A DNA stretch of 64,000 nucleotides from Cyclobacteriaceae bacterium. Lineage in GTDB: Bacteria; Bacteroidota; Bacteroidia; Cytophagales; Cyclobacteriaceae. Positions 8,938-24,775 of the stretch are shown piece by piece. Below the pieces are notes generated by a model, which saw only the letters and a list, made by a program, of their open reading frames with translations, was not told the origin of the DNA and did not search any database. Every line of letters begins with the position of its first letter. Positions within the stretch are counted from its first letter, which is position 1. Location: the NCBI GenBank assembly GCA_023151255.1, contig JAKLJG010000002.1, positions 192,574 to 256,573 of the forward strand. The letters run 5' to 3'. Position numbers and translations under genes: made by a program.

Positions 8938-8993
8938 AAGCAAAGCACAACGCTCCATTGAAAATGGAGGAACGCGTTGTGATTTGCTTTCAG
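8934..8993. repeat. Inverted partial CRISPR repeat forming a hairpin with repeat 1
   Basis: Bases 8934-8952 are the reverse complement of 8975-8993 with a single mismatch in 19 positions. Inside this, 8953-8959 pairs perfectly with 8963-8969 around a 3-nt loop, leaving a 5-nt bulge (8970-8974). The right arm covers the first 18 bases of the first CRISPR repeat, so the left arm is an inverted, truncated repeat or anti-repeat. It overlaps the last codon and stop of the upstream MFS gene. No T-tract follows, so it is not a standard intrinsic terminator. Confidence 0.85.
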
Positions 8994-10262
8994 TGAACGA
9001 TCTTTGACATGCCATTCTCTGTTCGCTTTCTGTGTCCGGTAGTTGTGATTTGCTTTCAGTGAACGATCTTTGACATGTAAGTTATACGCGGACGGCCTCG
9101 GTGTTATGTTGTGATTTGCTTTCAGTGAACGATCTTTGACATGCGGTGCCAACTTAAACGTGTTGAAGGTGCAGTTGTGATTTGCTTTCAGTGAACGATC
9201 TTTGACATGAAACTTAACATTGTTAAATAAGGTTTGCTGGTTGTGATTTGCTTTCAGTGAACGATCTTTGACATGGGCTAAGTTCCGGTGCCTTTCCTTC
9301 CCGTCGTTGTGATTTGCTTTCAGTGAACGATCTTTGACATGGAGGTAAGTGGTACGCCCATTGCAACGGTTGTTGTGATTTGCTTTCAGTGAACGATCTT
9401 TGACATGTAATCTTGCGGTTTCAGCCGGCCTAACTGGTTGTGATTTGCTTTCAGTGAACGATCTTTGACATGACAGTATCTGGCGGTCGTCTTGGTTTAA
9501 AAGTTGTGATTTGCTTTCAGTGAACGATCTTTGACATGGCGGGAATATTGAAAACGTCCGCGTGTTTGTTGTGATTTGCTTTCAGTGAACGATCTTTGAC
9601 ATGGAACTGGATGGGTTTGTGCTGTTCTGTAGGGTTGTGATTTGCTTTCAGTGAACGATCTTTGACATGGGTGCTCTGTTCCTGCCTTTGTAAGCTCTTG
9701 TTGTGATTTGCTTTCAGTGAACGATCTTTGACATGTATTCGAGGCTGGCGGCATATTTAATATTGGTTGTGATTTGCTTTCAGTGAACGATCTTTGACAT
9801 GCATTGAAGGGGAAGGAAAACTTTTGAACCTGTTGTGATTTGCTTTCAGTGAACGATCTTTGACATGCTATTGCTATTATTAACCGCTCGTGTTTTTGTT
9901 GTGATTTGCTTTCAGTGAACGATCTTTGACATGAAGCATTTTTTTTCTATTCTTCCGGTATCTGTTGTGATTTGCTTTCAGTGAACGATCTTTGACATGT
10001 GTCAGCTCTTTTACCCAGTAATAAGAGACGTTGTGATTTGCTTTCAGTGAACGATCTTTGACATGTCGCAGGTATTCAAGTATTGAAATCCGTACGTTGT
10101 GATTTGCTTTCAGTGAACGATCTTTGACATGGGTTAAAAAGTCATTGGTAACTCTGGTAGGTTGTGATTTGCTTTCAGTGAACGATCTTTGACATGCCCA
10201 CTTATCAGAATCAACAACGGATGAAAGTTGTGATTTGCTTTCAGTGAACGATCTTTGACATG
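8976..10262 (+). CRISPR. Type II-C CRISPR array, 20 repeats and 19 spacers
   Basis: Twenty identical 36-bp repeats begin GTTGTGATTTGC and end CTTTGACATG, starting at 8976, 9042, 9108, 9174, 9240, 9306, 9372, 9437, 9503, 9568, 9634, 9700, 9766, 9832, 9898, 9964, 10030, 10096, 10161 and 10227. Spacers are 30 bp except three of 29 bp (9408, 9539, 10132), and all differ. No repeat is degenerate, so sequence decay does not mark the trailer end. The orientation is set by pairing of the repeat's first 12 bases with the anti-repeat of the tracrRNA at 16185, which gives crRNAs reading left to right, opposite to the cas genes. Confidence 0.98.
8977..9006 (+). promoter_or_regulatory. Promoter embedded in the CRISPR repeat (first copy)
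   Basis: Repeat positions 2-4 are TTG and positions 24-31 are GATCTTTG, separated by 19 nt. This resembles the Bacteroidota promoter (TTG or TTTG at -33, TAnnTTTG at -7), with one mismatch in the -7 box. Transcription would start around repeat position 35-36, at the spacer boundary. The same element occurs in all 20 repeats. The fbp promoter in this window has the same 19-nt spacing. The call is an inference from sequence only. Confidence 0.5.
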
Positions 10263-10355
10263 CCATTTATAGCAAGCCTGTTGTAAACCAGCAGGTTGCA
10301 GCCGGTTGAGGACAGAAAAAATGGCCTGTCACATGTCGAAGAAGCCCCTGCTGCC

Positions 10356-10688
<333 letters not shown>

Positions 10689-11621
10689 TTAGGGCAGTTC
10701 GGGGTATATTATCTTTTTGGCATTTCCGCCAAAGCAGCGGGCCAGCGAGGCTGTGGTATGCTGGGCGGCCACCATCAGCGGGCTGCGTTCACCGTTCAGC
10801 AGTACATCAACCGAAGCAAGGCCCAGCAGTTTCTTTTTTACATCGGGCGAAAGCTGGTTGTAGTCACTTCCCTGAACAGCCAACCCTTTTACCAGCGAAT
10901 CGGCAAATGGGCGGTAAGGTTCCATCACATCATCGGCCAGGCAATAGTGGTTGTACTGGTTGTGGTGGTGAATGCCCAGCGTTGGCAGCAGGCCCGAGCC
11001 AACCAGACTGCGGGCAATAATGGCGCGCAGGATGGCGTAGGCATAGTTTAGTAAATTGTTTGGCGGGAGGCCTTCGCGTTCGCGTTTGAAACCGGGAATT
11101 TCCGGAAAGAGGTTTTTCCAGTAATAGGTAGCTGCACGGGCTTCGAGGTTTTCGGTATCGCCCGAAAGCACATCTTTGCTCCACTTCAGCAGGTTGCCCG
11201 CTTCGATGCCGCAGCGTTGAAGCAACAGCGCCTGGTTTTTGATTTTGGCCTTTACAGTTTGCTGCCACAATTGTTTTAGAAGAGGTTGGGAGGCGTTGAG
11301 TTGATCGCGGAACCGGGTGGCTTGCAGGGTATGGCCCGACAGGTTAAGCATAAGCCCGGTGGGCAAGTGGGTGTTATCGCAGGTAATGAAGGCCACGTTG
11401 TTGGCCAGCAGTTTGGCCATGAGAGCTTGCGATATAATAATTTGCTGGTGGTCGAGTATGACTACGCCAACATCCTCAATGGGTATGGTGGCCTGTGCTT
11501 CTTTTTTAAAGGCTTCGGGCAGGGTAGGGTTGTTTTCCACCTCGGGCAGACGCACCACCAGTTGTTCGAGGTGGGTGCTCAGGTATGCCGGGTTGCCGAA
11601 ATAGAGGGTGCGTTTGATCAT
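10689..11621 (-). CDS. cas1: CRISPR-associated endonuclease Cas1 (type II)
   Basis: Cas1 is the integrase that inserts new spacers into the array. The start is placed at the ATG at 11621 because type II Cas1 proteins begin MIKRTLYFGNPAYLS. The frame is open a little further upstream, but that part is unlike Cas1. The 310-residue product has the expected metal ligands: the Glu in SGDTENLEARAATYYW, then the His and acidic residues in GIHHHNQYNHYCLADDVMEPYRP. It lies 135 nt downstream of cas9 and 3 nt upstream of cas2. Confidence 0.95.
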   Translation of the reverse strand: MIKRTLYFGNPAYLSTHLEQLVVRLPEVENNPTLPEAFKKEAQATIPIEDVGVVILDHQQIIISQALMAKLLANNVAFITCDNTHLPTGLMLNLSGHTLQATRFRDQLNASQPLLKQLWQQTVKAKIKNQALLLQRCGIEAGNLLKWSKDVLSGDTENLEARAATYYWKNLFPEIPGFKREREGLPPNNLLNYAYAILRAIIARSLVGSGLLPTLGIHHHNQYNHYCLADDVMEPYRPFADSLVKGLAVQGSDYNQLSPDVKKKLLGLASVDVLLNGERSPLMVAAQHTTASLARCFGGNAKKIIYPELP

Positions 11622-11756
11622 AGCCGGCAAAAGACATACTGAATTTAACTCAATGCTATGAAAATCAAAAATGACACTTTTAATTTTCAAGGTTGGTGAT
11701 CAAGAAACTGATAAAAATCTTGAGCTTCTTAGGGGTATACTTAAAATTTTATCACG

Positions 11757-14700
11757 CTATTTCCATTTTATTGTTCCATCCCTTTTTATTTCAAAATCGT
11801 AGCCCTCAACTGCAAAATTCAGAGTGTCTTTTGAGAGCCTTAATTTTGGATATGGGTATTCGAAATTCACATTTGAAAACCCTTGCCAGATTGCCTTACC
11901 GAAGGTTTTCTCCAGTTTTTTTAAATCATTATCAGCTCGGCTATCTATATGATGCCTGAATCTGATACGTCCGTCTTTCTCAAAACCTTCAATCACATAC
12001 AGACGATTAGAGATTTCTTTTTCAATGATACCTAGCTCTTTAAGTTCAGCTAAATTTTCTTTAAAAAAAATCACCTTTCTTCCTGAGGTAAGCACATACT
12101 TTAATTGAACTTTTGTTTTGGGTTTTTGTATTTCTATTTCCTGTTCAAACATTTCTTCTAAAATTTTTGATGTCTTTTTTATTTGAGCAGCGTTAAATAG
12201 ACTAAGTATCCTATACCCTCTTTGTTTTTGATCATTTTCGTAAAGCCCGTATGCGAAATTTTCTCCATTAGCTGCATAGTAGCTTTGCTTATACTCCTTA
12301 TCAGAAAGATTAGTTTGCCTTTTAATTGCCAGGGGCTCCGAAACACTCGCCCATACCCGTATGTGCCGGATTTTATTGCCGTGTGGCTTACCATTTTTAT
12401 CTAACAGATACACCCCTTTTTCAAAAGCTTCTTTCAGGCCTCCGGCTTCGATTACTTGTTTTTCAATTTGTGATTTCAATCCATCATCCACAACTTGTTT
12501 TTTGATGTCATCCAGCGTCTTAAATCCAAGTGTGTTTGCATCTTTTTTATACTGAAGCGGGATCCTTACCACATATTTTACCTCTTCTTCCTGAACGAAT
12601 TTTTCATTTTCATCTTTCAATAAATTCCCTTTCTCGCCTTTTTTTGCAGGCTTTATTGCGCCATAGAATGTTTCCTGATGAAGTTGCCCGCGAATACTAT
12701 CTCCTGTTGCCCACTTGTTGACTTTCGTTCCATCCGGTTTTTCAATAAGTACTTCTTTACCGCGTTTACGCACTTTTCGCTTGGCGGGTGTTAACTCCTG
12801 GTTGTTGGCAATGTTATTTATCAAAATAGTATCATCAATACTCCAAACAAACTCTCGCTTAAAGCCTTTATAGGGCTCTTCTGAAAATGTAGCTTTTGGA
12901 TTTTTTTCCTTGGCTTCATAATACCTTTCTAAAATAGCATCGCGTTGTGCGGCCATAGGAATGAGGGTCAGTACTGCGGCATCTTTGGCATGATGCGAAT
13001 GTCTGCTCCGGTCTTTCTTCTCATCGGGAGCCTGCAGTTGGTATATTTTTCTGAATTCTGATATTATTGTTCCTTTTTGTAAATCTACTTTATCAAAATA
13101 GGTTTTCAAATAATGGAATGCATATTTTGAAATAAGCTGGGTATCCACCTTTTGACTGTTTTTGAAACCACTTGTAATTTCGGTAATCGTAAACCTTTCC
13201 AATTTGTTTTGCCAGTAATCCAACTCCATTTGCCACAGGTGCCGTTGTTGAATGGCATCATCTTTCCATTTTTTAATTACAGCTTTTTTAGATTTTGTCT
13301 TCCAAAAATCAATTTGCTGTTTGATGCGTTTAACTTTTTCTTCCCACGCTTCTAATCTTGGCTTTATGGCTGAACATTTTCCAATGTTCGCGCCAAAGTC
13401 ATGTTCTCTATCATAGTTAGGAAGTTGGGTAGGGATTTGATTTTTCTTTACACTACGATTATAGTCCGCATAACAAACTGTAAGGTTTGCCAAAGAATTA
13501 TCAAAAGATTTGCTTCTTGGAAGTGTGTGCTCAAAATCAATGACATTTTCATTGAACAAATCTGTTAATTTGATAAACCTGCCTGTATATAGGCACTGGT
13601 AACCCTGTTCTTTCCAAAGGCGAAACTTATCGATTAAGTTTTTACCATGTCCATTCCAACGAATTGCTTCATTCTTTTGAGTTGATTTTTTTCTTTTCTT
13701 CTTCCCTTTTTCATCTTCTTCTACTTCTTCAACTTCCGGCAGTGTTTGATCAGCATTTTGCTCGTAAAACAAGCGAACCTTATCGATGTCGTCATTACTG
13801 TCTGAGTTTGCTTTAATGCCTGGATCTTCGTTTAGAAGCTTGTTAATAGCCTCTGCAAACTCCTGATTTTCCGCTTCGCGTTGGCGTTGCCAGGCTTCAA
13901 TGGCCCAACGTTTATTCGCATCATTTAGCTCTCGTGCAACTTCTACCACAACCCTTGTTTCACTGTCAATTTGATTGGTTTCGATCATATAATTTATCAA
14001 CTTGCGCAGTTCGTGTAAAGTGCGCATAGCCATTGGGTTTTTGAATGAACCTGTTTTGGGGCTGCCGAGCTTTAGCACTCCGTCCTTATCGGGTTTAGCA
14101 GGCGGATAAATGTTGATTTCGGAAGGATGATAAATTTTTGAAAGCTTCTTCTCGTCAAGATTTTCAAATTTGTCCAATAGAAACTCTTTTAACGTATCAA
14201 TCAGTTTGGGTAACTGGTAGTAGCCCGATTCGGTTTTGAAATACTTTTTACCGTTCGATTGAATGGTAACAATTCGTTCTTTGCTTCCGGAATCCCTGAC
14301 AATTCCGTGCTTGGTAAAATAGGCTTGATAACAGTCTTTAACGGTATCGAATATGGGTTTCTTGTTCTGTTCAGAAAAGCTATTCCACTTACCTTTTCCG
14401 AGAGTTTCTTCAATGGCGATTTGAATCTGCTTTAAATCACTCTCATCTAGCACATAGTTTTTTCCACCAGACTTTTCATTTGCTTCCAGATTTTTGTGCT
14501 TTGAAATAAGGTTGTTAACAATATTGAGAATCGTTTTTTGCTGACGATTTTCATTAATGACCTCACTAATGCTTTCCAACAGCATTTTTTCGTTTTGTGA
14601 CCATAAATCTTTACCAAGAATTTCAGGAATATTGGCCAATAAAACAGCCTCCGTGTAAATTAAGCCTTTCTGTAAAAACACATTTATTTTGTTGATGGCA

Positions 14701-16154
14701 TTCAAGCTCAACATGCCATAACCAACGGGCAATGTGTTCCATGCAATTACAAATTTTTTAACTTTTTCAGGTTCAAGTTTCAATTTGTTTTCTGCGAATT
14801 CAGCAACATACTCCTGGTCTTCATAGCTAAATAAAACGTGCCAAATGTCTTCGATATCGTAATAGTCTTTTCCGGATTTGGATTTTCGGTCTTTTTTGAT
14901 TTTTACATTCAAAAAGTTATCACCAAAAATATCTTTTAACCGAGCCGAGACAGGGCAGCCGGTTACAGTTGTTTTAGGTGAATAATTGAGTTGCCAATTT
15001 TTTCCTTTTTTCTTAAAGAATTCTACTATTTCAGAGAATGGAAAGTAGCCTTTGGTTCGTAAGAAAAATTTTTCATATAGTTCTTGTAAAAGAGGGAGTT
15101 CAATTTTATGTGCCTCATTAGGGTTGTTCGAATAGGAAATTTTCTCCCCTGCAAATGGTTTGAATTTAATGTTGTTCAAAAATGCCCATGCTCTAAAAGT
15201 TTCAAATGCTGGGTGGCTGATGGGAGCGCGGTATTTGCTAGGTTCTAATGTACATTTTCCAATTAATCCTTTCTGTGAACGTAAGGGACGTTTGTAGAAA
15301 ATACTTCCATTATTCTTATTTCTGGCAGTTTCAACAAGTTTGGTATAAAGCGCGCTTTCAAATTTTAATCCTTGAAATTGAAAAATGAATTTAATCTCAT
15401 CTTTATAGTTTTCACGAATCAGGTATTGGGTAATATCAAGCCGAATTCTTTTTCCTTCATTTTCTTTATTTGCCAGGAAAACGCCAACAGGTACTGACGA
15501 ATCATAATCAGGAAATAATTCTTTCAGTTTGTTTGTTTTCTTTAGCTCCGATTTCTGAAGTGTAGTCTCATTTTCGTCAACAACATCAACTTCCTCCTCT
15601 TTCACATCTTCCGCAGCTTTGCGACTGCTTTTAAAACCCCTGCGTTGAGCAATGTGGTACAAGGCCCTGCCTAATTTAAAACGGTTTGTTTCTTTAGAAA
15701 AATCCAGTTTTGTTTCCGCTAATTCTTTTCGTAGTTGATAGGGACTTGTATAGTCTGGTTTGCCGTCATTATCAAAATCTAATTTTATCCAGGCATCAAA
15801 TGCTGTATTCCAAATCGGATAAACACGTCCTGCGTTGTTATTCTTGCGCGCTTCTTCCTTGCTGTAATGTCTCCATTTGTTTAAGTCTGCAATTGTTAAT
15901 GGACAATAGCCCTCTGTTATTAGAACTTCAAGCGTGGCCCAAAGCCGGTATTTTCGCGCTTGATATAGTCTTCTGATTGACCTTTTTTTCGTACGTTCGG
16001 CAGCATAGGAGTATTCTCCTGTTTTTCCAACACCCACACCTTTTTTAAAAGTGATTACTCCGAATTTCTCAATTTGGTTTTCTAAGGCATTAGGGTTTCT
16101 CAGTGCCCAGCCGATCGAATTTGTTCCTAAGTCAAGTCCTAGAATCTTGCTCAT
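11757..16154 (-). CDS. cas9: Cas9 RNA-guided DNA endonuclease, type II-C
   Basis: Cas9 cuts DNA matching the spacer with two nuclease centres. All catalytic motifs are present in this 1465-residue protein. RuvC-I is at the N-terminus (GLDLGTNSIGWAL, Asp8). An Arg-rich bridge helix follows (RTKKRSIRRLYQARKYRLW). RuvC-II is near residue 736 (VVVEVARELN), HNH near 871 (DFEHTLPRSKSFDNSLANL), and RuvC-III near 1056 (HSHHAKDAAVL). The length and the absence of cas4 or csn2 fit the large Bacteroidota II-C group. A strongly basic and acidic insert (EEDEKGKKKRKKS, near residue 820) precedes the HNH domain. No truncation or frameshift is seen. Confidence 0.97.
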   Translation of the reverse strand: MSKILGLDLGTNSIGWALRNPNALENQIEKFGVITFKKGVGVGKTGEYSYAAERTKKRSIRRLYQARKYRLWATLEVLITEGYCPLTIADLNKWRHYSKEEARKNNNAGRVYPIWNTAFDAWIKLDFDNDGKPDYTSPYQLRKELAETKLDFSKETNRFKLGRALYHIAQRRGFKSSRKAAEDVKEEEVDVVDENETTLQKSELKKTNKLKELFPDYDSSVPVGVFLANKENEGKRIRLDITQYLIRENYKDEIKFIFQFQGLKFESALYTKLVETARNKNNGSIFYKRPLRSQKGLIGKCTLEPSKYRAPISHPAFETFRAWAFLNNIKFKPFAGEKISYSNNPNEAHKIELPLLQELYEKFFLRTKGYFPFSEIVEFFKKKGKNWQLNYSPKTTVTGCPVSARLKDIFGDNFLNVKIKKDRKSKSGKDYYDIEDIWHVLFSYEDQEYVAEFAENKLKLEPEKVKKFVIAWNTLPVGYGMLSLNAINKINVFLQKGLIYTEAVLLANIPEILGKDLWSQNEKMLLESISEVINENRQQKTILNIVNNLISKHKNLEANEKSGGKNYVLDESDLKQIQIAIEETLGKGKWNSFSEQNKKPIFDTVKDCYQAYFTKHGIVRDSGSKERIVTIQSNGKKYFKTESGYYQLPKLIDTLKEFLLDKFENLDEKKLSKIYHPSEINIYPPAKPDKDGVLKLGSPKTGSFKNPMAMRTLHELRKLINYMIETNQIDSETRVVVEVARELNDANKRWAIEAWQRQREAENQEFAEAINKLLNEDPGIKANSDSNDDIDKVRLFYEQNADQTLPEVEEVEEDEKGKKKRKKSTQKNEAIRWNGHGKNLIDKFRLWKEQGYQCLYTGRFIKLTDLFNENVIDFEHTLPRSKSFDNSLANLTVCYADYNRSVKKNQIPTQLPNYDREHDFGANIGKCSAIKPRLEAWEEKVKRIKQQIDFWKTKSKKAVIKKWKDDAIQQRHLWQMELDYWQNKLERFTITEITSGFKNSQKVDTQLISKYAFHYLKTYFDKVDLQKGTIISEFRKIYQLQAPDEKKDRSRHSHHAKDAAVLTLIPMAAQRDAILERYYEAKEKNPKATFSEEPYKGFKREFVWSIDDTILINNIANNQELTPAKRKVRKRGKEVLIEKPDGTKVNKWATGDSIRGQLHQETFYGAIKPAKKGEKGNLLKDENEKFVQEEEVKYVVRIPLQYKKDANTLGFKTLDDIKKQVVDDGLKSQIEKQVIEAGGLKEAFEKGVYLLDKNGKPHGNKIRHIRVWASVSEPLAIKRQTNLSDKEYKQSYYAANGENFAYGLYENDQKQRGYRILSLFNAAQIKKTSKILEEMFEQEIEIQKPKTKVQLKYVLTSGRKVIFFKENLAELKELGIIEKEISNRLYVIEGFEKDGRIRFRHHIDSRADNDLKKLEKTFGKAIWQGFSNVNFEYPYPKLRLSKDTLNFAVEGYDFEIKRDGTIKWK

Positions 16155-16361: not shown

Positions 16362-16949
16362 TCAGCCCTTCAACCTCTTATACATCTCCAAACACACCCA
16401 GGCATCGGTGGCGGCATACTGCAGTTGCTTGGGGGTGAGGGTGGGGGCTTCCCAGTTGCTGGTTTGGGCGCTCTTGCTGATGCGGAAGCCCAGCAGCAGG
16501 GCGGTTAGTTTTTTTATACTCTCGGCTTCGTACCCTGCTTTGCGGGTAAGGTGGGTAAGTTCCAGAAAGCCTTCGGGCTTAAACCGTTTCAGGCGTTGCA
16601 GGGCGGCCAGGTCATCGCGCAGTGCAAGGCCAACTTTTAATTTGTCTTTATCCTGCAGGTAGTCGAGCAGTTCGGGGGTAAGTCCGGTGGCCTGAACGCG
16701 GATAAGAAAGGCCTTGTGGGGCAGGGCCAGTTGCATAAGCGCCACGTTGTAGCGCTGGCCTTTTACAAATGCGGGGCGGGTTTCGGTGTCAAAACCTGCA
16801 GTATCGTGCTCTTTAATTTCATCAAGTGCGCGCACCAGTTTGGTATGCTCCTGCACCACTACAATTTTTCCTTCAAAGGCCTTCAGCGGCAGGGATTGTA
16901 TTTCGCTGTGATCGATGGTGGCCCTATGGCTGTTCTTTTTGTCCGTCAT
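16362..16949 (-). CDS. RNase D-like 3'-5' exonuclease
   Basis: The 195-residue protein is a single DEDDy exonuclease domain: GFDTET (Exo I, near residue 52), LALRDDLAAL (Exo II, near 112) and YAATDAWVCLEMY (Exo III, near 180). It lacks the HRDC domains of full RNase D, as do many short Bacteroidota homologues annotated as 3'-5' exonuclease domain proteins. These trim structured RNA 3' ends. The start overlaps the antiporter gene by 26 nt, so the two are probably one transcript. Its position next to the tracrRNA locus is probably coincidental. Confidence 0.85.
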   Translation of the reverse strand: MTDKKNSHRATIDHSEIQSLPLKAFEGKIVVVQEHTKLVRALDEIKEHDTAGFDTETRPAFVKGQRYNVALMQLALPHKAFLIRVQATGLTPELLDYLQDKDKLKVGLALRDDLAALQRLKRFKPEGFLELTHLTRKAGYEAESIKKLTALLLGFRISKSAQTSNWEAPTLTPKQLQYAATDAWVCLEMYKRLKG

Positions 16950-18381
16950 TTACAAGTCGCCTGATTTTAATGTTGGCATACGCCATGAACACCGTCATAA
17001 AAGGGCTGATAATATTAAAGAAACAATATGGTGCAAAGGTAAGCGTAGAGATGCCGAGTACGGTTGCCTGGGTTGCTCCGCAGGTATTCCACGGAATCAG
17101 TACGGAGGTAACCGTGCCGCTGTCTTCGAGTGTGCGGCTCAGTACTTCGGGTTTTAAACCTCTTTTCTTAAACGTATCGGCATACATGCGGCCGGGTACT
17201 GCAATGGCCATGTACTGGTCGGAGGCGGTGAGGTTAAAGAACACACAGGTGGCGGCTGTTGAGGCTACCAGTGAGCCCACCGATTTGGCAAAGCGGATGA
17301 TCTCATCGGCAATTCGTTTAAGCATTCCACCGGCCTCCATCACACCGCCAAATACCATGGCGCATAAAATCAGCCACACGGTGTTGAGCATGCCGGCCAT
17401 GCCGCGCGCTTTCAGTAATTCAGAAACCATGTCGTTATCGGTGGTGAGTTGTACGCCTGTGCTCATGGCGTTCATCACGGCCAGGAATGATGATTTAAGA
17501 AAGTTATCATGAATGCCCGATACCTGGTTTACTACATGTGGCTGAAAGATGACGGCACATACACCACCCAGCAGGGCGCCAATCAGCAGGGCCGGGGTGG
17601 CGGGCACTTTGCGCACAATCATGATGATAACCAGCGCGGGCACGACAAACAAAACCGGGTTCAGGTTAAAGGCATCGTCAATAGCTTTCAATACTACGGC
17701 ATCCTGGGCTTCGGATTGTGTTGTGTCGAGCGTAAAGCCCCACACCAGGAAAATAATTAACGTGATGATGAGTGTGGGTATGGTTGTGTACATCAGGTAG
17801 CGGATGTGCGTGAACAGATCCGTGCCGGCCATGGCCGGTGCCAGGTTGGTGGTGTCGGATAATGGCGAAATCTTATCGCCAAAATAAGCACCCGAGATAA
17901 TGGCTCCGCCAATAACCCCGATGTGGATGCCCAGCGCCTGCCCGATGCCCAGCAGTGCAATACCAATGGTGGCGATGGTGCCCCATGAACTGCCGGTAGC
18001 CAACGAAACAATGCAACACACCACACAGGCTGCAAACAAAAAGATGGTAGGGTTAAGAATTTTTAATCCATAGTAGATCATAGCCGGTACAATGCCGCTC
18101 AGCAGCCAGGTGCCCGACAGCGAACCAATGACCAACAGGATGAGAATAGCCCCCATGGCCATGCTGATGCTCTTCACAATACTGTGTTCAATTTCTTTCC
18201 AGGTGCGCCCAAGGCGCCAGGCCACCACACCGGCCACAGCAGCCCCCAGCAGCAGGGCAATCTGGTTTGGACCACCGGTGGCATCGGCACTGTAAATAAT
18301 AACATTGGTTGCCAACAGAGCCGTTAAGATGGCGATGGGTATAAATGCCTGAGCCAGCGTAGGCTCTTTGTGGTGTGTCAT
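16924..18381 (-). CDS. NhaC-family Na+/H+ antiporter
   Basis: This 485-residue integral membrane protein has about twelve hydrophobic segments and NhaC-family motifs such as ATGSSWGTIATIG in the middle, ISGAYFGDKISPLSDTTNLA, and GTVTSVLIPWNTCGATQA near the C-terminus. The family exchanges Na+ for H+. Some members exchange organic acids or amines instead. Because it follows a Rieske oxygenase and flavoprotein genes on the same strand, it could import a substrate for that pathway, but this is only a contextual guess. Confidence 0.85.
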   Translation of the reverse strand: MTHHKEPTLAQAFIPIAILTALLATNVIIYSADATGGPNQIALLLGAAVAGVVAWRLGRTWKEIEHSIVKSISMAMGAILILLVIGSLSGTWLLSGIVPAMIYYGLKILNPTIFLFAACVVCCIVSLATGSSWGTIATIGIALLGIGQALGIHIGVIGGAIISGAYFGDKISPLSDTTNLAPAMAGTDLFTHIRYLMYTTIPTLIITLIIFLVWGFTLDTTQSEAQDAVVLKAIDDAFNLNPVLFVVPALVIIMIVRKVPATPALLIGALLGGVCAVIFQPHVVNQVSGIHDNFLKSSFLAVMNAMSTGVQLTTDNDMVSELLKARGMAGMLNTVWLILCAMVFGGVMEAGGMLKRIADEIIRFAKSVGSLVASTAATCVFFNLTASDQYMAIAVPGRMYADTFKKRGLKPEVLSRTLEDSGTVTSVLIPWNTCGATQATVLGISTLTFAPYCFFNIISPFMTVFMAYANIKIRRLVNDGQKEQP

Positions 18382-18440: not shown

Positions 18441-19595
18441 TCATGCTTCCGGGTCGGGATGGCCCAGGGCTTTTAATACCTCGCGGTCAAGTTGATATAA
18501 AATATCTTCACGACCTGAATAATAGCCTCGGGTAAACCGTTTTGATTTGGTACCGATTTGCATTTGTTCGCACACCTGCCAGTCTTGGCGATTGGTTAAG
18601 TCCCAAAATTCAACGGCCGAGTTGATGCCCGCCTGTGCGGATGGATCGTTAATTACTTCGGGCCGGAACAGCCAGTAACAGTCGTTAATAATTTTGCCCG
18701 GGCCCAGCGGGGTAATGTGATGGTACATTACAAAGTCGGGGTGGGGGGTAAGGAGCATGTTAGGAAATACCGAGTAGTAGTACACCCGTTGCAAATCATC
18801 ACCATGCACATTGCAGATGGGTGGCGCGGCTGCCTCACCGGTCATGGTCATGCTGCCGCGTTTGCGGGGCAGGTCCATAAACCCGCCAATTACGGCACCT
18901 TTGCTGGCATCGTGCTGAGCCGAATTAACCGGTGTGAGTTGGCTGAGCAGCGGATGCACTCCCGGGCAGTGGTAGCACTCCTGGTAGTTTTGTAAAATCA
19001 GTTTCCAGTTGCAGTTCAGTTCGTAGCGGATGTGGCGGGCTATGCGCAACTCGGCTATTTTCCAGTCGGCAAATTTCCCGATGAGGGCTTCCATCTGCAC
19101 TGCAAACGGTTCGGGGTTTTCGGCCAGGCTAATAAAGATAAAGCCTTCCCACACGTGTACATGGGCGCGGGGCAGCGCGCATTTTTCTTTTTCGAAGCCG
19201 TGCCCTTCCTGCATTAGCGGGGCGGCCATCAGTTTTCCATCAAGCGCATACGTCCAGGCATGGTAGGGGCACAGGATGGTTTTGGATTTGAAATTTCCTT
19301 TCGGCTCAGCACACAATTGTGTGCCGCGGTGACTGCACACATTGAAGAGTGCGTTTATTTCGTTGGCTTTATCGCGAACCAGGATGATGCTCTCATCGGC
19401 TACCTGGAGCAATTTATAATCTCCGGGATTCGGAATCTCCTCTTCACGACAGGCAAGCACCCAGAATTTGTAAAAGATCTTTTCAACTTCTTCCCGGTAA
19501 ATGTCCGGACTGTGGTAGTACACACCGGGTAATGTGCGCGCTCCGTCAATAATCGGGTAATCAACACCCCGTTTTTTGAATTGCCGCTGTTCCAT
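18441..19595 (-). CDS. Rieske 2Fe-2S oxygenase alpha subunit (choline/carnitine monooxygenase-like)
   Basis: The protein of about 384 residues has an N-terminal Rieske cluster site, NVCSHRGTQLC then LCPYHAWTYALDG (CxH...CxxH). A C-terminal mononuclear iron domain contains NYQECYHCPGVHPLL, where the two His serve as ligands. The layout matches aromatic-ring and quaternary-amine oxygenases of the choline, carnitine or stachydrine demethylase type. The ATG at 19595 is preferred over an upstream in-frame codon that would add 40 unrelated residues. It is the fourth gene of a block with two flavoproteins and a GcvT-like protein, suggesting oxidative demethylation of a methylated amine. Confidence 0.85.
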   Translation of the reverse strand: MEQRQFKKRGVDYPIIDGARTLPGVYYHSPDIYREEVEKIFYKFWVLACREEEIPNPGDYKLLQVADESIILVRDKANEINALFNVCSHRGTQLCAEPKGNFKSKTILCPYHAWTYALDGKLMAAPLMQEGHGFEKEKCALPRAHVHVWEGFIFISLAENPEPFAVQMEALIGKFADWKIAELRIARHIRYELNCNWKLILQNYQECYHCPGVHPLLSQLTPVNSAQHDASKGAVIGGFMDLPRKRGSMTMTGEAAAPPICNVHGDDLQRVYYYSVFPNMLLTPHPDFVMYHHITPLGPGKIINDCYWLFRPEVINDPSAQAGINSAVEFWDLTNRQDWQVCEQMQIGTKSKRFTRGYYSGREDILYQLDREVLKALGHPDPEA

Positions 19596-19630
19596 GGTAT
19601 TGAAGTTAATAGTTTTACCGCCCTGAATAC

Positions 19631-21175
19631 TCAACAATTTTTCAATATGGTTTGTGCCCCCAGGTAGCCCGGCATGCATGTAATGCCTCCACCGGGGTGA
19701 GAACCGCTGCCGCACAAGTAAAGCCCGCTAACCGGAGTTGCATATTGTGCACACAACGGGAACGGCCGGGTGATGATCTGATCAACGGCTTCTTCACCAT
19801 GGTAAATATGCCCGTTGGTAAGGCTGTAACGCGATTCCAGATCAGCCGGTGAAAGCACCTCGCTGCCGACAACCGAACTGGCGATACCCGGACTGTAGCT
19901 TTCCAGTGTTTTCATCACACTATCGAATAGTTTCTTCTTTGTTTCATCATGCCAGCCATCTTTAAGATTGAAAGGAGCAAAATGAACCAGTATGGAGATT
20001 ACGGAGTGACCGGCAGGTGCAAGATTTGGTTTCGATACGGTGGGCACATGAATGTCGAGCAGAGGCTCGGCCGAAGACTGCCTGTATTTGGCCGGATCAA
20101 AAGCGCGCTCCATGTCATCGAATGAGTTTCCTGTGCGGTAAAATTCCAGGCCGCCAACACCGTTAAACGTTACGGCTTTGTTTACTGCCAGGCTTACTTT
20201 GGCAGTAGTGCCGCGCGAGCGATAGTGTTTCACGGCATGCTCGAGCGCATAACTAATCTGGTTGGGCTGCAACAGATCGTAAAATGTTACCTGCGGGGTG
20301 CAGGAGGAAGCAACCACCGGGGCCGTAAAAGTTTCGCCATCTGCTAATTTTACACCGCTTACTTTCCGGCCGGCATCCAGCACAATCTTGTCAGCCGGTG
20401 CATTGGTTTTTATATCAACGCCTGCATTTTTTGCAGCTTCTTCGAGCGCAGCAATAAGCGCCTGCGGTCCGCCAATAATGTGCTCACCGGCCAGGCACTC
20501 CAGCATCAGCAGGTTAAGCGTGGTGTACGATGACCACGGCCCGGTAAATGAACCGTACAGGGCCGGTGCAGCAATACCTGCTTTGATAAAATCAGTTTCG
20601 AATTTTTCGTTCAGAAAGTCGGCCACGCTCATCGGGGCTACTTTCAAAAACTCCATCATGGTTTTTTTGCCCAGCCGCTTCAGGGCAAGGCCCTTTTTGA
20701 GCAACCCCCACAGTTGTTTGGTGCCGAGTGCTGAAAGGTCGGGCGGTTGTTCATCGAGCAGGTTTTTCATAAACGGCCTGATGGCCGAAATAAAGGCCAT
20801 ATAATCGCGGTAACCGGCAGCATCTTTTGCCGAAAATTTTGAAATAGCCGCTGCCGTTGCCTCAACATCGTTGCTTAGCGGCAGGCAATCACCCTGTTTG
20901 CTCAGTAAGCCTACTGTGGGTTTGCCTTGTTTGGTTTTAAGGCCAAACTTTTCAAGAGTAAATTCTTTGATTACCCGGTTGCGAACACCACTGGTATCGT
21001 GTAGCAAGCCGGTGGTTGAATAGCCCGGATGAAATTCCTCACCGGCTGCGATGCCACCAAGCATGGAGCGTTTTTCAAGCACCAGTACTTTTTTGTTTTC
21101 CCTCGCCAGCGTTATGGCTGCGGTTAGTCCGTTGTGTCCTCCGCCAATAACAATGATATCGTATGCTTTACTCAT
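19631..21175 (-). CDS. FAD-dependent oxidoreductase, PYROXD2/CrtI-like
   Basis: The 514-residue flavoprotein starts with a dinucleotide-binding motif (IIVIGGGHNGLTAAITLA, then a Glu at the end of strand 2). It ends with the family motif LYLCGSGSHPGGGITCMPGYLGA, which contacts FAD. It belongs to the phytoene-desaturase-like NAD(P)/FAD oxidoreductases. It is a diverged paralogue of the adjacent 21186 gene. The substrate is unknown. Gene order and spacing (10 nt after the previous gene) indicate one operon with the Rieske and GcvT-like genes. Confidence 0.85.
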   Translation of the reverse strand: MSKAYDIIVIGGGHNGLTAAITLARENKKVLVLEKRSMLGGIAAGEEFHPGYSTTGLLHDTSGVRNRVIKEFTLEKFGLKTKQGKPTVGLLSKQGDCLPLSNDVEATAAAISKFSAKDAAGYRDYMAFISAIRPFMKNLLDEQPPDLSALGTKQLWGLLKKGLALKRLGKKTMMEFLKVAPMSVADFLNEKFETDFIKAGIAAPALYGSFTGPWSSYTTLNLLMLECLAGEHIIGGPQALIAALEEAAKNAGVDIKTNAPADKIVLDAGRKVSGVKLADGETFTAPVVASSCTPQVTFYDLLQPNQISYALEHAVKHYRSRGTTAKVSLAVNKAVTFNGVGGLEFYRTGNSFDDMERAFDPAKYRQSSAEPLLDIHVPTVSKPNLAPAGHSVISILVHFAPFNLKDGWHDETKKKLFDSVMKTLESYSPGIASSVVGSEVLSPADLESRYSLTNGHIYHGEEAVDQIITRPFPLCAQYATPVSGLYLCGSGSHPGGGITCMPGYLGAQTILKNC

Positions 21176-21185
21176 TTTTCTGTTG

Positions 21186-22775
21186 TTAGATGGCCCGTGA
21201 TGTTAACATGGTTTTGGCGCACAGTTCACCGCTGGCGCCCATAATGCCTCCGCCCGGGTGTGTGCCCGACCCGCACATCCATAATTTAGGTATGGAAGTT
21301 TTGTAGCCGGAGTAGTTGGCCACTGGCCGTTGAAAGAGCAATTGTTCCAGGCTAAGTTCGCCCTGGAAAATATTTCCTTCGGTAAGCCCCATGGTTTGCT
21401 CAAGGTCCCACGGGGTGAGCACCTGCCGGAATAAAATCTTATCCTTCAGGCCTGGAATGTATTCAGCCAGTGTATCCACCACCGTGTCGCCAAAGGCTTC
21501 GCGGTACTTGGGCCAGTTTTCTGCACCCTCTTTTATATGGTATGGTGCGTACTGAACGAAGCACGACAGGATGTGCTTGCCCGGAGGAGCCAGGCTCGGA
21601 TCAGTTAAGGTTGGAATTACCGCGTTGATGTAAGGCCGTGTGCTGAACTCACCATACTTGGCCTGATCGTAGGCTTTCTCCAGGTAATCAATGCTGGGCG
21701 CAATAGCAATGTCACCACGAATATGGTCACCATCGCCCGGGCGGCAACTGAATTCGGGTACGCTGTCGAGTGCCAGGTTTACTTTACCGGAACTGCCGCG
21801 CAGTTTGAAGCGCTTAATGTCTTTCAGTACATCTGGATCAAGGTGGTTTTCGCCCACCATTTTCAGGTAGGTGCGGTTGGGGTCAAGGTTGGAGATGACG
21901 GTTTTGGCATACAGTTCATCTCCGTTTTCCAGCACTACGCCAGTGGCCATACCGTTTTTAATGATGACTTGTTTTACGGGCGCTTCGGTTCTGATTTCAG
22001 CGCCATAGCTCATGGCTGCACGTGCGCACGCCATGCTTACGCCACCGGTGCCGCCTTTTGAAAATCCCCACGAGCGGAACACCCCGTCAAGCTGGCCCAT
22101 GTAGTGATGCAGTAATACGTATGCTGTGCCCGGAGAACGAATGCCCTGAAACGTGCCGATGATACCGCTTACCGACATGGGTGCCTTGAGTACCTCGGAT
22201 TCGAACCACAGGTCGAGAAAGTCGAGTGCGCTCATCGTCACCAGTTTGATATTGAGGTGCAGCAGGTCGGGACCCAGATCTTTAAAGGCTTTACCTAATC
22301 GAAGTAGGTTGGCAATTTCTTTCGGATTTATCGAATTGATGTTCGGTGCGGGATGATCAATTACGGCTTTAGCCAGTTTGCCCATGTGCGTCATTACGCG
22401 GCTGAACTCCGGATACACTTCCGAATCTTTTTTGCTGAAGCGCGCAATCTCCCTGCGTGACCGGTGTGAATCGGCCCAGCGGGCCAGCGAGTCGCCATCG
22501 GGCAACGGCAGGAAGGAGCAGTCCATCGGGATTACTTCATAGCCGTGCTTGGCCAGTTCCAGTTCGCGGATGATGTGCGGCCGGAATAAGCTGACCACAT
22601 ACGAAGCGACAGAGAAGGTAAAGCCCGGATATAATTCTTCCGATACGGCTGCGCCTCCGAGCACGTGGCGTTTTTCCAGCACCAATACTTGTCGCCCCGC
22701 TTTGGCCAGGTAGGCGGCACAGATAAGGCCGTTGTGGCCTCCACCAATAATGATGGCATCGTATTTTTTGCTCAT
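21186..22775 (-). CDS. FAD-dependent oxidoreductase, PYROXD2/CrtI-like (paralogue)
   Basis: The 529-residue protein has the same architecture as its neighbour: IIIGGGHNGLICAAYLAKAG at the N-terminus, LEKRHVLGGAAVSEE after it, and LWMCGSGTHPGGGIMGASG at the C-terminus. The pair probably arose by duplication, and both are kept intact, so they may act as two subunits or on two steps. Its ATG overlaps the stop of the aminomethyltransferase gene by 4 nt (ATGA), evidence of translational coupling. Confidence 0.85.
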   Translation of the reverse strand: MSKKYDAIIIGGGHNGLICAAYLAKAGRQVLVLEKRHVLGGAAVSEELYPGFTFSVASYVVSLFRPHIIRELELAKHGYEVIPMDCSFLPLPDGDSLARWADSHRSRREIARFSKKDSEVYPEFSRVMTHMGKLAKAVIDHPAPNINSINPKEIANLLRLGKAFKDLGPDLLHLNIKLVTMSALDFLDLWFESEVLKAPMSVSGIIGTFQGIRSPGTAYVLLHHYMGQLDGVFRSWGFSKGGTGGVSMACARAAMSYGAEIRTEAPVKQVIIKNGMATGVVLENGDELYAKTVISNLDPNRTYLKMVGENHLDPDVLKDIKRFKLRGSSGKVNLALDSVPEFSCRPGDGDHIRGDIAIAPSIDYLEKAYDQAKYGEFSTRPYINAVIPTLTDPSLAPPGKHILSCFVQYAPYHIKEGAENWPKYREAFGDTVVDTLAEYIPGLKDKILFRQVLTPWDLEQTMGLTEGNIFQGELSLEQLLFQRPVANYSGYKTSIPKLWMCGSGTHPGGGIMGASGELCAKTMLTSRAI

Positions 22776-23989
22776 GATTTCGGAAATTTTGGTGTGGATG
22801 TTTTACGCTCCGGGTTATAGAACTGAGTTTTACATACAGTGGCCGAAACTGTGTGGCGCACGTGTTCAACCGTTACTTCAAACTGCAATTCCATCCCGAT
22901 TTTATCGTATTGTTTCTGAACGGTAGCCAGTGCAATGTTTTTTTTGAGGATGGGCGACCAGGTGCCGCTGGTGGCATAGCCGGCCTGGATGCGTTTGTCT
23001 TTTGCAGTGTAGATGGGAATGGAACTGCGCCAGGCGTGGTTGCTGAGTACAGGCGGAAGCCCTCTTTTATAATAGAGTTCTTCCAACTCGGGCCAGTTAA
23101 TATCCAACCCCACGATGGCCCATTTAGATCCATGTTCCTTTTCTGTCTGTAAAGCGGCTTGTCCGTTAAAAGGCGCCCGCTCCAGGTCCACCGTCCAACC
23201 CAACGAGATTTCGTAGGGTGAAGATTTGCGCTCATCAATTAATGCATGCAGGGCGTTGAAGTAATCAACATCTTTTAAAATAAGGCCTGCTTCAACCCGG
23301 GTAACATCGAGTGCATCGAGGCCGGCCGGGCGGATGTCGTAATTTCTGCCGGCAGCCATGATGGCATCCCACAGTTTCAATGCGTGTTCATTTTTAACCC
23401 ACAGTTCATAGCCAAGGTCACCGGTATACCCGGTGCGGGAAATGTAAATTTCAAATTCGTTAACACGGGCTTTACAGGTGGCAAAGTATTTCAGGGCGTC
23501 CAGGTCGGCATCGCAAATTTGTTTCAGGATGTCGCGCGAAGTGGGGCCCTGCAAGGCAAGCCCGGCTACCTGGTCGGAGATATCGGTAAGTTCAACCCGG
23601 TAGCCGCGCAGAAACCGGGAGAACCAGGAGTAACACGGATCGGCCGAGGTAACAAAAAATTCCTGCTCGCCACGCCTCATCACGGTACCATCGTCAACAA
23701 CTTTTCCGTAATCATCGCACCAGCAACAATACGACACACGGCCCACTGCAAGTTTTTCGATGTTGCGAACCATGATGCGCGAAAGAAAGGCAGCCGCATC
23801 GGGCCCGGTTACCCGGTACTTAAATAAAGGTGAAACATCCAGCAGGCCGGCCGAGTTGCGGAAGGCGTAGTACTCGGAATCATGCAATGTTTCATACGAG
23901 CACACGGCATAATAGCCGGCCCACTCTTTCCATTTCATGCTGTGGCACAAATCGGAGGTACGCGGAAAAAAAGGTGTTTTAACTGGCAT
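22772..23989 (-). CDS. GcvT-like aminomethyltransferase family protein
   Basis: The protein of about 405 residues has the glycine-cleavage T-protein fold: an N-terminal folate-binding domain (SAGLLDVSPLFKYRVTGPDAAAFL, LALQGPTSRDIL, SRTGYTGDLGYELWV, GLDALDVTRVEAGLIL) and a C-terminal beta-barrel. No gcvH or gcvP is nearby, so it is probably not the T-protein of the glycine cleavage system. Relatives transfer one-carbon units from dimethylglycine, sarcosine or DMSP to tetrahydrofolate. The ATG at 23989 is chosen over a GTG at 24013. It is the first gene of the demethylation-type block. Confidence 0.82.
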   Translation of the reverse strand: MPVKTPFFPRTSDLCHSMKWKEWAGYYAVCSYETLHDSEYYAFRNSAGLLDVSPLFKYRVTGPDAAAFLSRIMVRNIEKLAVGRVSYCCWCDDYGKVVDDGTVMRRGEQEFFVTSADPCYSWFSRFLRGYRVELTDISDQVAGLALQGPTSRDILKQICDADLDALKYFATCKARVNEFEIYISRTGYTGDLGYELWVKNEHALKLWDAIMAAGRNYDIRPAGLDALDVTRVEAGLILKDVDYFNALHALIDERKSSPYEISLGWTVDLERAPFNGQAALQTEKEHGSKWAIVGLDINWPELEELYYKRGLPPVLSNHAWRSSIPIYTAKDKRIQAGYATSGTWSPILKKNIALATVQKQYDKIGMELQFEVTVEHVRHTVSATVCKTQFYNPERKTSTPKFPKS

Positions 23990-24262: not shown

Positions 24263-24775
24263 ATGCTTAACCAAAACGACATTCTTAAACGCGCCCATAC
24301 TTCCTCTTTCTGGCGGTTGGTGCTTAATTGGTCACTCGATCGAATGATACCGTTTAACAGGTCGCACGGTTTTGCTATTCGTGAAATTGACGATTACCGG
24401 ATTAAGGTTTTGATTCCGTATAAACGCAGCAACTTCAATCATATTAACGGCCTGCATGCCTGCGCGCTGGCAACGGCTTCCGAGTTTGCAACCGGATTTA
24501 TATTGGTTTCCAGGCTAGATCCAAAGAAGTACCGGCTCATCATGAAGCGGCTGGAAATGGAATACCATTACCAGGGTAAAATGAATGCGTTTGCCGAGTT
24601 TTCGATTTCGGAAGAATGGCTTGTAGAAAATGTGTTTACGCCACTTACCCAAAGCGATGCCGTTGAAGTAAATTGTGTGGTTAAAATTCATGATGAAAGG
24701 GGCAATCACCTCACTACCGGAAAAATTTGCTGGCAGGTAAAGGATTGGACTAAAGTAAGGACAAAAGGGGGTTGA
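24263..24775 (+). CDS. DUF4442 hotdog-fold protein, thioesterase-like
   Basis: The 170-residue protein resembles the DUF4442 group of hotdog-fold proteins: a conserved HINGLHACALATASEFATG helix that would form the 'sausage', and strands such as EYHYQGKMNAFAEFSI. Many hotdog proteins hydrolyse acyl-CoA thioesters, but catalytic residues are not obvious here. It starts with a clear ATG after an A-rich stretch. It precedes a GNAT-like gene by 17 nt and is probably cotranscribed with it. Confidence 0.7.
   Translation: MLNQNDILKRAHTSSFWRLVLNWSLDRMIPFNRSHGFAIREIDDYRIKVLIPYKRSNFNHINGLHACALATASEFATGFILVSRLDPKKYRLIMKRLEMEYHYQGKMNAFAEFSISEEWLVENVFTPLTQSDAVEVNCVVKIHDERGNHLTTGKICWQVKDWTKVRTKGG

Follow-up and report, generated by a model that had tools for sequence, protein, structure and literature searches.

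The stretch of DNA analysed here (the window, 64,000 nucleotides) comes from contig JAKLJG010000002.1 (positions 192,574 to 256,573, forward strand) of a Cyclobacteriaceae bacterium whose assembly, GCA_023151255.1, comprises 3.17 Mb in 44 contigs and is 99.89% complete. Within the window, four adjacent minus-strand genes encode a GcvT-like protein (GcvTL), two flavoproteins (FAD1 and FAD2) and a Rieske oxygenase. An original prediction, made from the sequence alone, had read them as an operon for O2-dependent N-demethylation in which the one-carbon (C1) unit is captured on folate. The genes of this candidate operon are:

22772–23989, minus strand: GcvTL, a GcvT-like folate-binding C1 transferase of 405 amino acids (PF01571, 219 bits; PF08669)
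21186–22775, minus strand: FAD1, a PYROXD2/CrtI-superfamily flavoprotein of 529 amino acids (PF01593, Amino_oxidase)
19631–21175, minus strand: FAD2, a second PYROXD2/CrtI-superfamily flavoprotein, of 514 amino acids (PF01593)
18441–19595, minus strand: Group V-type Rieske oxygenase of 384 amino acids (PF00848, 149 bits; PF00355)

All four open reading frames (ORFs) are intact in the ORF listing, and they are as closely packed as had been described: GcvTL and FAD1 overlap by 4 nucleotides (nt), and gaps of 10, 35 and 59 nt separate FAD1 from FAD2, FAD2 from the Rieske gene, and the Rieske gene from the NhaC-type carrier gene that follows. The ORF list holds longer GTG forms of GcvTL (to 24013) and of the Rieske gene (to 19715); we took the ATG codons at 23989, which fits the match starts of relatives, and at 19595, which likewise fits the relatives. 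Pfam agrees with the families named earlier (GCV_T and GCV_T_C, Amino_oxidase/FAD, Rieske and Ring_hydroxyl_A, Na_H_antiporter) and, again as predicted, a scan of ten window proteins at and near the operon showed neither GcvH nor GcvP. A separate true GcvT is encoded elsewhere in the genome (L041; TIGR00528, 404 bits, cut-off 235.85). Since the NCBIfam matches of all four operon proteins lie below the curated cut-offs, none of them has a named function. Promoter-like sites (8, against 8.8 in shuffles) and terminator-like sites (12, against 11.7) show no excess over shuffled sequence. The closest named relative by operon genes is a Cytophagales metagenome-assembled genome (L051), with GcvTL 93% identical, which places the window in the Bacteroidota.

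Conservation of the GcvTL–FAD1–FAD2 trio

The core of the gene set is the trio of GcvTL, FAD1 and FAD2, with the Rieske oxygenase as a companion. At E ≤ 1e-90, GcvTL was found in 10 of 395 genomes of the phylum, its own included, and a scan of genome contigs added seven further named GcvTL loci, bringing those read to 17. FAD1 directly adjoins GcvTL in every one of these Bacteroidota and Myxococcota loci (divergently in L050), an adjacency that exceeds chance. A second flavoprotein is present in 16 of them, the exception (L043) being a contig that ends within FAD1. Seven plasmid records top the match lists of both GcvTL and FAD1; five were fetched, NZ_CP093529 and NZ_CP069303 being left out of the locus reading. 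All five of these alphaproteobacterial plasmid loci (Fuscovulum, Shinella zoogloeoides, Parasedimentitalea, Rhizobium SL42 and Ensifer) carry the trio in the reordered form FAD1–FAD2–GcvT. Two of the seven plasmid stretches fetched for their GcvTL matches are not trios, namely Sinorhizobium pSymA, where a 35% identical GcvT relative has no flavoprotein relative within the stretch, and Rhizobium johnstonii pRL11. Phage records match GcvTL (13 records) and a Rieske orthologue (11 records), all at less than 60% identity.

GcvTL carries the Asp, Glu and Arg residues by which the folate-dependent GcvT superfamily is recognised: D100 (the second Asp of VVDDG), E195 (in GYTGDLGYE) and R231 (in TRVEAG) are conserved across 22 aligned trio members, with the sole exception of L050, where Glu replaces D100. 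We take D100 to be the catalytic Asp, and E195 and R231 to form part of the folate site. The best NCBIfam match of GcvTL is Tdm (NF053776; 266.8 bits over profile positions 387–759 of 763, cut-off 1100); PRK00389 (238 of 300 bits) and the glycine cleavage T protein model TIGR00528 (201.5 of 235.85) also remain below their cut-offs.

Both flavoproteins contain GGGHNG at residue 11 and a second FAD motif, CGSGTHPGGG at residue 501 of FAD1 and CGSGSHPGGG at residue 488 of FAD2. Their best NCBIfam match is CrtO (NF045689, cut-off 1000), with 318.7 bits for FAD1 and 225.8 for FAD2, and they reach 133.4 and 110.1 bits against the crtI-family model TIGR02734 (cut-off 238.1). They resemble CrtO, CrtI and PYROXD2 in superfamily and in both FAD motifs, but differ in lying far below the carotenoid cut-offs and in their genetic linkage, which is to GcvT and, among the relatives, to amine genes; the kinship with PYROXD2, named by no search, is our assumption. 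In a midpoint-rooted tree of 42 flavoprotein rows, which has several long branches and eight open forks, FAD1 of Bacteroidota, Myxococcota and Alphaproteobacteria forms a single starred clade of 18 rows. The FAD2 rows lie apart from it in two starred groups of 12 and 5 rows, and L050 has a second flavoprotein that forms a branch of its own. FAD2 is the faster-changing of the two, with longer branches in the tree (0.09 versus 0.011 for the window). Because FAD1 changes slowly throughout, we do not take its high identity across classes as proof of transfer.

Several trio and related stretches hold further genes. In pRL11 the GcvT match lies inside a DUF1989 protein (L064, 6768–9137), and the same stretch carries a DmmA-family dimethylamine monooxygenase gene. 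A Shinella sumterensis plasmid (L072, 7001–9752) holds a lone related flavoprotein gene directly before gcvT, a second flavoprotein–GcvT pairing, near a 3-keto-5-aminohexanoate cleavage gene. In five loci of one family (L044–L048), a conserved gene for an HtrA-like protease comes after the trio, together with two more conserved genes of no clear function. An IclR-type regulator follows the GcvT-like gene of L050 (12581–13384; best match BhcR, 153.5 of 350, far below cut-off), and the trio cluster of Fuscovulum ends with a gene for a protein of the dimethylsulfoniopropionate lyase family (PF16867; L058, 21515–22366). The open-access literature searched, outside which lie most subscription papers and all preprints, yielded no paper on this gene set.

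A Group V-type Rieske oxygenase as companion

The Rieske protein has the metal ligands C87/H89 and C109/H112 and an iron site of H209, H214 and Asp338, as do all seven full-length orthologues, the window's included. In all eight aligned orthologues (the window's included, one partial) we also find a bridging Glu206, Cys207-x-x-Cys210, and Tyr204 at the position of CntA Tyr203. A bridging Glu and, in some members, Cys-x-x-Cys by the iron are marks of the quaternary-ammonium Group V (PMC10952381), and the presence of both supports the quaternary-amine type first proposed. Group V is further divided at the CntA-Y203 position into Va, with an aromatic residue (carnitine, choline and benzalkonium), and Vb, with Asn (glycine betaine and stachydrine N-demethylases) (PMC7948474). 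With Tyr at this position, in place of the Asn that Stc2 (3vca) and 3n0q carry in our alignment, the window's enzyme is Va-like by a residue criterion that is not absolute, a Priestia enzyme in a betaine-degradation-like cluster having Phe. As Tyr204 points to Va and not Vb, quaternary amines are favoured and an N-demethylation step by the Rieske enzyme is weakened.

The window's enzyme resembles CntA, Stc2 and GbcA in its bridging Glu, Cys-x-x-Cys and Rieske and iron ligands, but differs in having no adjoining reductase gene, and its strong similarity to solved Group V enzymes spans only about residues 17–230 of 384. Its best NCBIfam match is GbcA (NF058607), at 199.5 bits against a cut-off of 670. 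The top-listed plasmid homologue, from Priestia, is 33–34% identical; a Nonomuraea record with the best E-value was left out of the loci read.

Orthologues of the Rieske oxygenase, 60–94% identical over the stretch compared, occur in seven other trio genomes. The gene is linked to the trio in 5 of the 17 (the window, L042, L051, L055 and L056; the L051 contig ends inside the Rieske gene, which we took to continue in L122) and lies on a separate contig in three (G537, G721 and G722). No orthologue was found in the other nine: six (G399, G460, G441, G391, G571 and G723) gave no PF00848 match, and three (G340, G354 and G726) have only proteins of 24–33% identity. The Rieske gene is not, then, the fixed operon member it had been drawn as. 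Across the phylum, at E ≤ 1e-70, the orthologue appears in 3 of 395 genomes, all within the 10 that carry GcvTL; we took the two surveys as the same genome draw, since their size, tallies and labels agree.

Other Rieske-type proteins, 24–31% identical to the window's, are encoded in four of the five alphaproteobacterial stretches, some of them several kb from the trio, and none was seen in the 21-kb Ensifer stretch. This suggests that the pairing of Rieske enzyme and trio arose more than once. Fuscovulum aR1 and Parasedimentitalea P1 combine Tyr with Cys-x-x-Cys, whereas aR2-type proteins have Asp, and two Parasedimentitalea SRPBCC proteins have Phe, both without the Cys pair.

As to electron supply, the genome has two PF00175 matches, one a PaaE-like protein on another contig (L113; 304.4 of 420.8 bits for the PaaE type, 206.2 of 500 for GbcB) and the other weaker. 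A reductase common to Rieske carriers was considered and rejected, PF00175 being matched in only one of three genomes searched.

The host locus and the slot before NhaC

Three further genes define the setting of the operon:

16924–18381, minus strand: NhaC-type carrier, directly downstream, a host-locus gene and possible partner (TIGR00931)
16362–16949, minus strand: RNase D-like 3'-5' exonuclease, after NhaC, a host-locus marker and not part of the pathway (PF01612)
24263–24775, plus strand: DUF4442 protein, at the opposite edge of the insertion site (PF14539)

The carrier scores 401.4 bits against TIGR00931 (cut-off 370). It does follow the operon directly, as had been noted, but it is a family-wide host gene and not specific to the operon: at E ≤ 1e-60 it occurs in 39 of 41 family genomes, its own included, so that its presence alone is no evidence of the pathway. 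Loci were read from 29 of the 38 relatives with a match, and an RNase D-like gene adjoins NhaC in 28 of them. In the operon-free genome G064 (L117) the order is RNaseD-NhaC-DUF4442-GNAT-GT2-RsgA-KdtA (RsgA and KdtA named from sequence), with 165 bp from NhaC to DUF4442; in the window, the four operon genes occupy that interval.

The slot before NhaC is variable. Of the 29 relatives, 16 have a DAO-family oxidoreductase gene there and 4 a saccharopine/lysine-dehydrogenase-like gene; the remaining 9 have another gene or none. Of the DAO cases, 14 are directly adjacent and 2 have short ORFs between; six were assigned by Pfam and the rest by 44–52% identity. Two sampled genomes of the same genus have a lysine-dehydrogenase-like gene between DUF4442 and NhaC, L053 has the trio in the slot without a Rieske gene, and in G720 the Rieske gene is followed by NhaC as in the window. 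The slot is thus shared by unrelated oxidoreductases possibly acting on amino acids or amines; shared ancestry accounts for the many DAO cases, and it is the replacements that are suggestive. From the slot contents (L084–L112, L141 and L143), the NhaC carrier may itself transport amines or amino acids.

GcvTL was not found in eight listed genomes of the same genus and family, and none of the operon genes lies within the NhaC loci of the 29 relatives, which together suggest that the operon was acquired. No mobile element was noticed at the operon. Within each edge of the insert the only repeat is one short palindrome, and the longest exact match between the edges measures 7 nt in direct and 9 nt in inverted orientation, where direct matches in shuffled sequence average 7.5 nt and reach 12 nt at most.

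Elsewhere in the window, a type II CRISPR-Cas locus (8976–16154) comprises an array of 66-bp repeat-spacer units (about 8976–10262), Cas1 (TIGR03639; 10689–11690) and a Cas9-like ORF of 1465 amino acids named from its own sequence (11757–16154), with a GC content of 37% for the Cas9-like gene versus 52% for Cas1. At 58162–60366 and 61391–63901 lie two genes on opposite strands, the first for a sulfate-permease-family transporter and the second for a DabA-type subunit of an inorganic carbon transporter.

Candidate pathway and alternative explanations

The neighbours of the trio in relatives support a role in amine or basic amino-acid metabolism, through Pot-like transporters, class III aminotransferases, a BetI-like TetR regulator and other Rieske enzymes. 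Class III aminotransferases occur in all five alphaproteobacterial stretches (PRK07036 above cut-off in Shinella, SL42 and Parasedimentitalea; GntE-like and below cut-off in Fuscovulum; a partial gene at the stretch edge in Ensifer), as do ABC transporters like the Pot type of Fuscovulum. TetR regulators are present in all four annotated stretches, and the one tested resembles BetI at a score under the cut-off (121.9 of 201.3). In both G721 and G722, the Rieske gene, on a contig apart from the trio, is oriented divergently to two conserved neighbouring genes. One encodes a permease similar to basic-amino-acid/polyamine antiporters (332.7 of 409) and the other a protein of the ADI/DDAH family, the families having been scanned in the G722 copies. 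A lysine-dehydrogenase-like gene follows the Rieske gene in L055; its best PDB match is 3abi, presumably a lysine dehydrogenase. Homarine was also considered as a substrate, and the literature searched offered nothing usable.

With a probability of about one half, we read the gene set as a methylated-amine module, probably acquired, in which CrtI-type flavoproteins remove N-methyl groups oxidatively and the C1 units are captured on tetrahydrofolate. Gene structure, conserved metal ligands and folate-site residues, conserved linkage and co-occurrence are observed; all of the catalysis, the sequence in which it would proceed and the compound acted on are inferred. The Rieske enzyme, for which the residues described above support quaternary amines as substrate class, would hold the quaternary ammonium group by a pi-cation contact through Tyr204 and carry out a first O2-dependent oxidation. 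FAD1 and FAD2 would then oxidise the C–N bond at the remaining N-methyl groups, one perhaps taking a tertiary amine to a secondary and the other a secondary to a primary, or the pair acting on one substrate, and GcvTL would transfer the methylene unit to tetrahydrofolate. What is supported of the original prediction is a methylated- or quaternary-amine pathway with folate capture; what is not supported, given Tyr204 and clade Va, is the Rieske enzyme as N-demethylase. That interpretation is partly supported, right in kind with its key step unproven, and to it we add the separable trio, the Va-like residue of the Rieske enzyme, its role as companion rather than obligatory member, and the replaceable slot before NhaC.

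Flavin-dependent amine oxidation is coupled to a GcvT-like folate domain in dimethylglycine oxidase and dehydrogenase and in heterotetrameric sarcosine oxidase, whose DAO-type flavin domain is fused to it or in complex with it. To our knowledge, the known flavin-dependent folate-linked N-demethylases all use such DAO-type domains. The likeness of the operon to these enzymes appears in PDB matches (1pj5, 5l46 and 1vrq), and it differs from them in having two separate CrtI/PYROXD2-type proteins. GcvTL also shares with Tdm and DmmD a GcvT-like domain in a demethylating system, and these two are precedents for such domains in methylamine demethylation. DmmD, proposed to load formaldehyde onto tetrahydrofolate, is the nearest precedent we found for a demethylating oxygenase that is served by a protein of the GcvT type (PMC5520151). 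Unlike Tdm, GcvTL is a stand-alone protein of 405 amino acids without the N-terminal half, and unlike DmmD its partners are two CrtI-type flavoproteins and not DmmABC.

Several observations weigh against the methylated-amine module. The nine trio genomes in which no Rieske orthologue was found imply that the trio must also work without it. The co-occurrence of GcvTL and the Rieske orthologue, which speaks for the module with hypergeometric values of 1.2e-5, or 4.6e-4 without the own genome, is assessed by a test that ignores shared ancestry. There is no reductase gene within the cluster, and the Rieske carriers G329 and G537 gave no PF00175 match. The second flavoproteins of L044–L049 and L050 are not close to FAD2 (23–39% matches), and carotenoid-enzyme models score highest for both flavoproteins, though far under cut-off. 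The "Pot-type" substrate-binding proteins are just 22–24% identical to that of Fuscovulum, and neither of the two tested has an NCBIfam match. No BCCT carrier was found in any of the 10 trio genomes searched, and BCCT uptake of the substrate was set aside on that count. Structure predictions of the Rieske protein and FAD1 were poor (mean predicted local distance difference test scores of 39.7 and 39.6), with pockets that could not be read.

The clade Va signature of Tyr204 would also suit a CntA-like Rieske enzyme that oxidises the carbon beside the nitrogen and frees a whole methylamine such as trimethylamine, leaving the trio to demethylate tri- or dimethylamine onto folate. Among NCBIfam models, GcvTL matches the GcvT half of trimethylamine N-oxide demethylase best, and the gene divergent from the Rieske gene in two trio genomes may encode a DDAH, an enzyme that releases dimethylamine. 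The protein in question, however, matches arginine deiminases equally well, and the scanned trio neighbours, in which no aimed search was made, include no recognised gene resembling dmmABC, Tmm or Tdm. Choline monooxygenases do not release trimethylamine. They too belong to clade Va (PMC7948474). We regard the CntA-like route as doubtful. Plain glycine-betaine degradation, with the Rieske enzyme on betaine, the flavoproteins on dimethylglycine and sarcosine, and GcvTL taking the C1 units, would match three methyl groups to three oxidising enzymes. It would also suit both the GbcA match and the Priestia Rieske homologue, which clusters with a FAD-GcvT fusion, SolA, a BCCT carrier and glycine cleavage genes. 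The GbcA score is nevertheless far from its cut-off and Tyr replaces the clade Vb Asn. BCCT carriers are missing as noted (other betaine carriers were not searched for), and the alphaproteobacterial aminotransferases and Pot-like transporters would be unexpected for glycine betaine, making this route unlikely.

Those same transporters and aminotransferases would fit a salvage pathway that recovers basic amino acids or polyamines from their methylated forms, such as lysine from trimethyllysine, as would the antiporter-like permease and ADI/DDAH-like gene of G721 and G722 and the lysine-dehydrogenase-like genes of L055 and the two same-genus slots. We consider salvage distinctly unlikely: permease and aminotransferase are assigned by family only, without specificity, and the lysine-dehydrogenase-like gene is not enriched (1 of 10 trio genomes versus 45 of 395 in the phylum) and is missing from the own genome, on which the trimethyllysine-to-lysine route was rejected. 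A role of the CrtI-type flavoproteins in tailoring carotenoids or other lipids, with an accidental GcvT-like neighbour, could draw on CrtO as their best match. Against it stand the distance from the CrtO cut-off and the place of GcvTL beside FAD1 over two phyla, reordered in a third. A check of relatives for carotenoid or steroid genes, which the original prediction had named as pointing elsewhere, found none among the trio neighbours annotated or scanned (a part of all). Support for such a pathway is absent from these neighbours, and we hold it very improbable. A carotenoid gene does adjoin the flavoprotein of the Deinococcus outgroup (L075), which is not a trio.

Returning to the methylated-amine module, we tentatively suggest that GcvTL–FAD1–FAD2 could represent a new type of N-demethylase linked to folate, one that uses two CrtI/PYROXD2-type flavoproteins instead of the usual DAO-type flavin domain and whose range the Rieske enzyme extends to quaternary amines. 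In the window's Bacteroidota family, it may have replaced unrelated amine-oxidising enzymes before NhaC, a carrier that would in that case transport an amine or an amino acid. Methylated amines are an abundant class of nitrogen compounds, and if this reading holds, the trio would be a second solution to the chemistry of folate-linked N-demethylation. The bacterial PYROXD2 family would gain a function, and the carotenoid names often given to such genes would be corrected. The trio offers a concrete set of proteins for testing, and the replaceable slot before NhaC a lead to the solute of this carrier.

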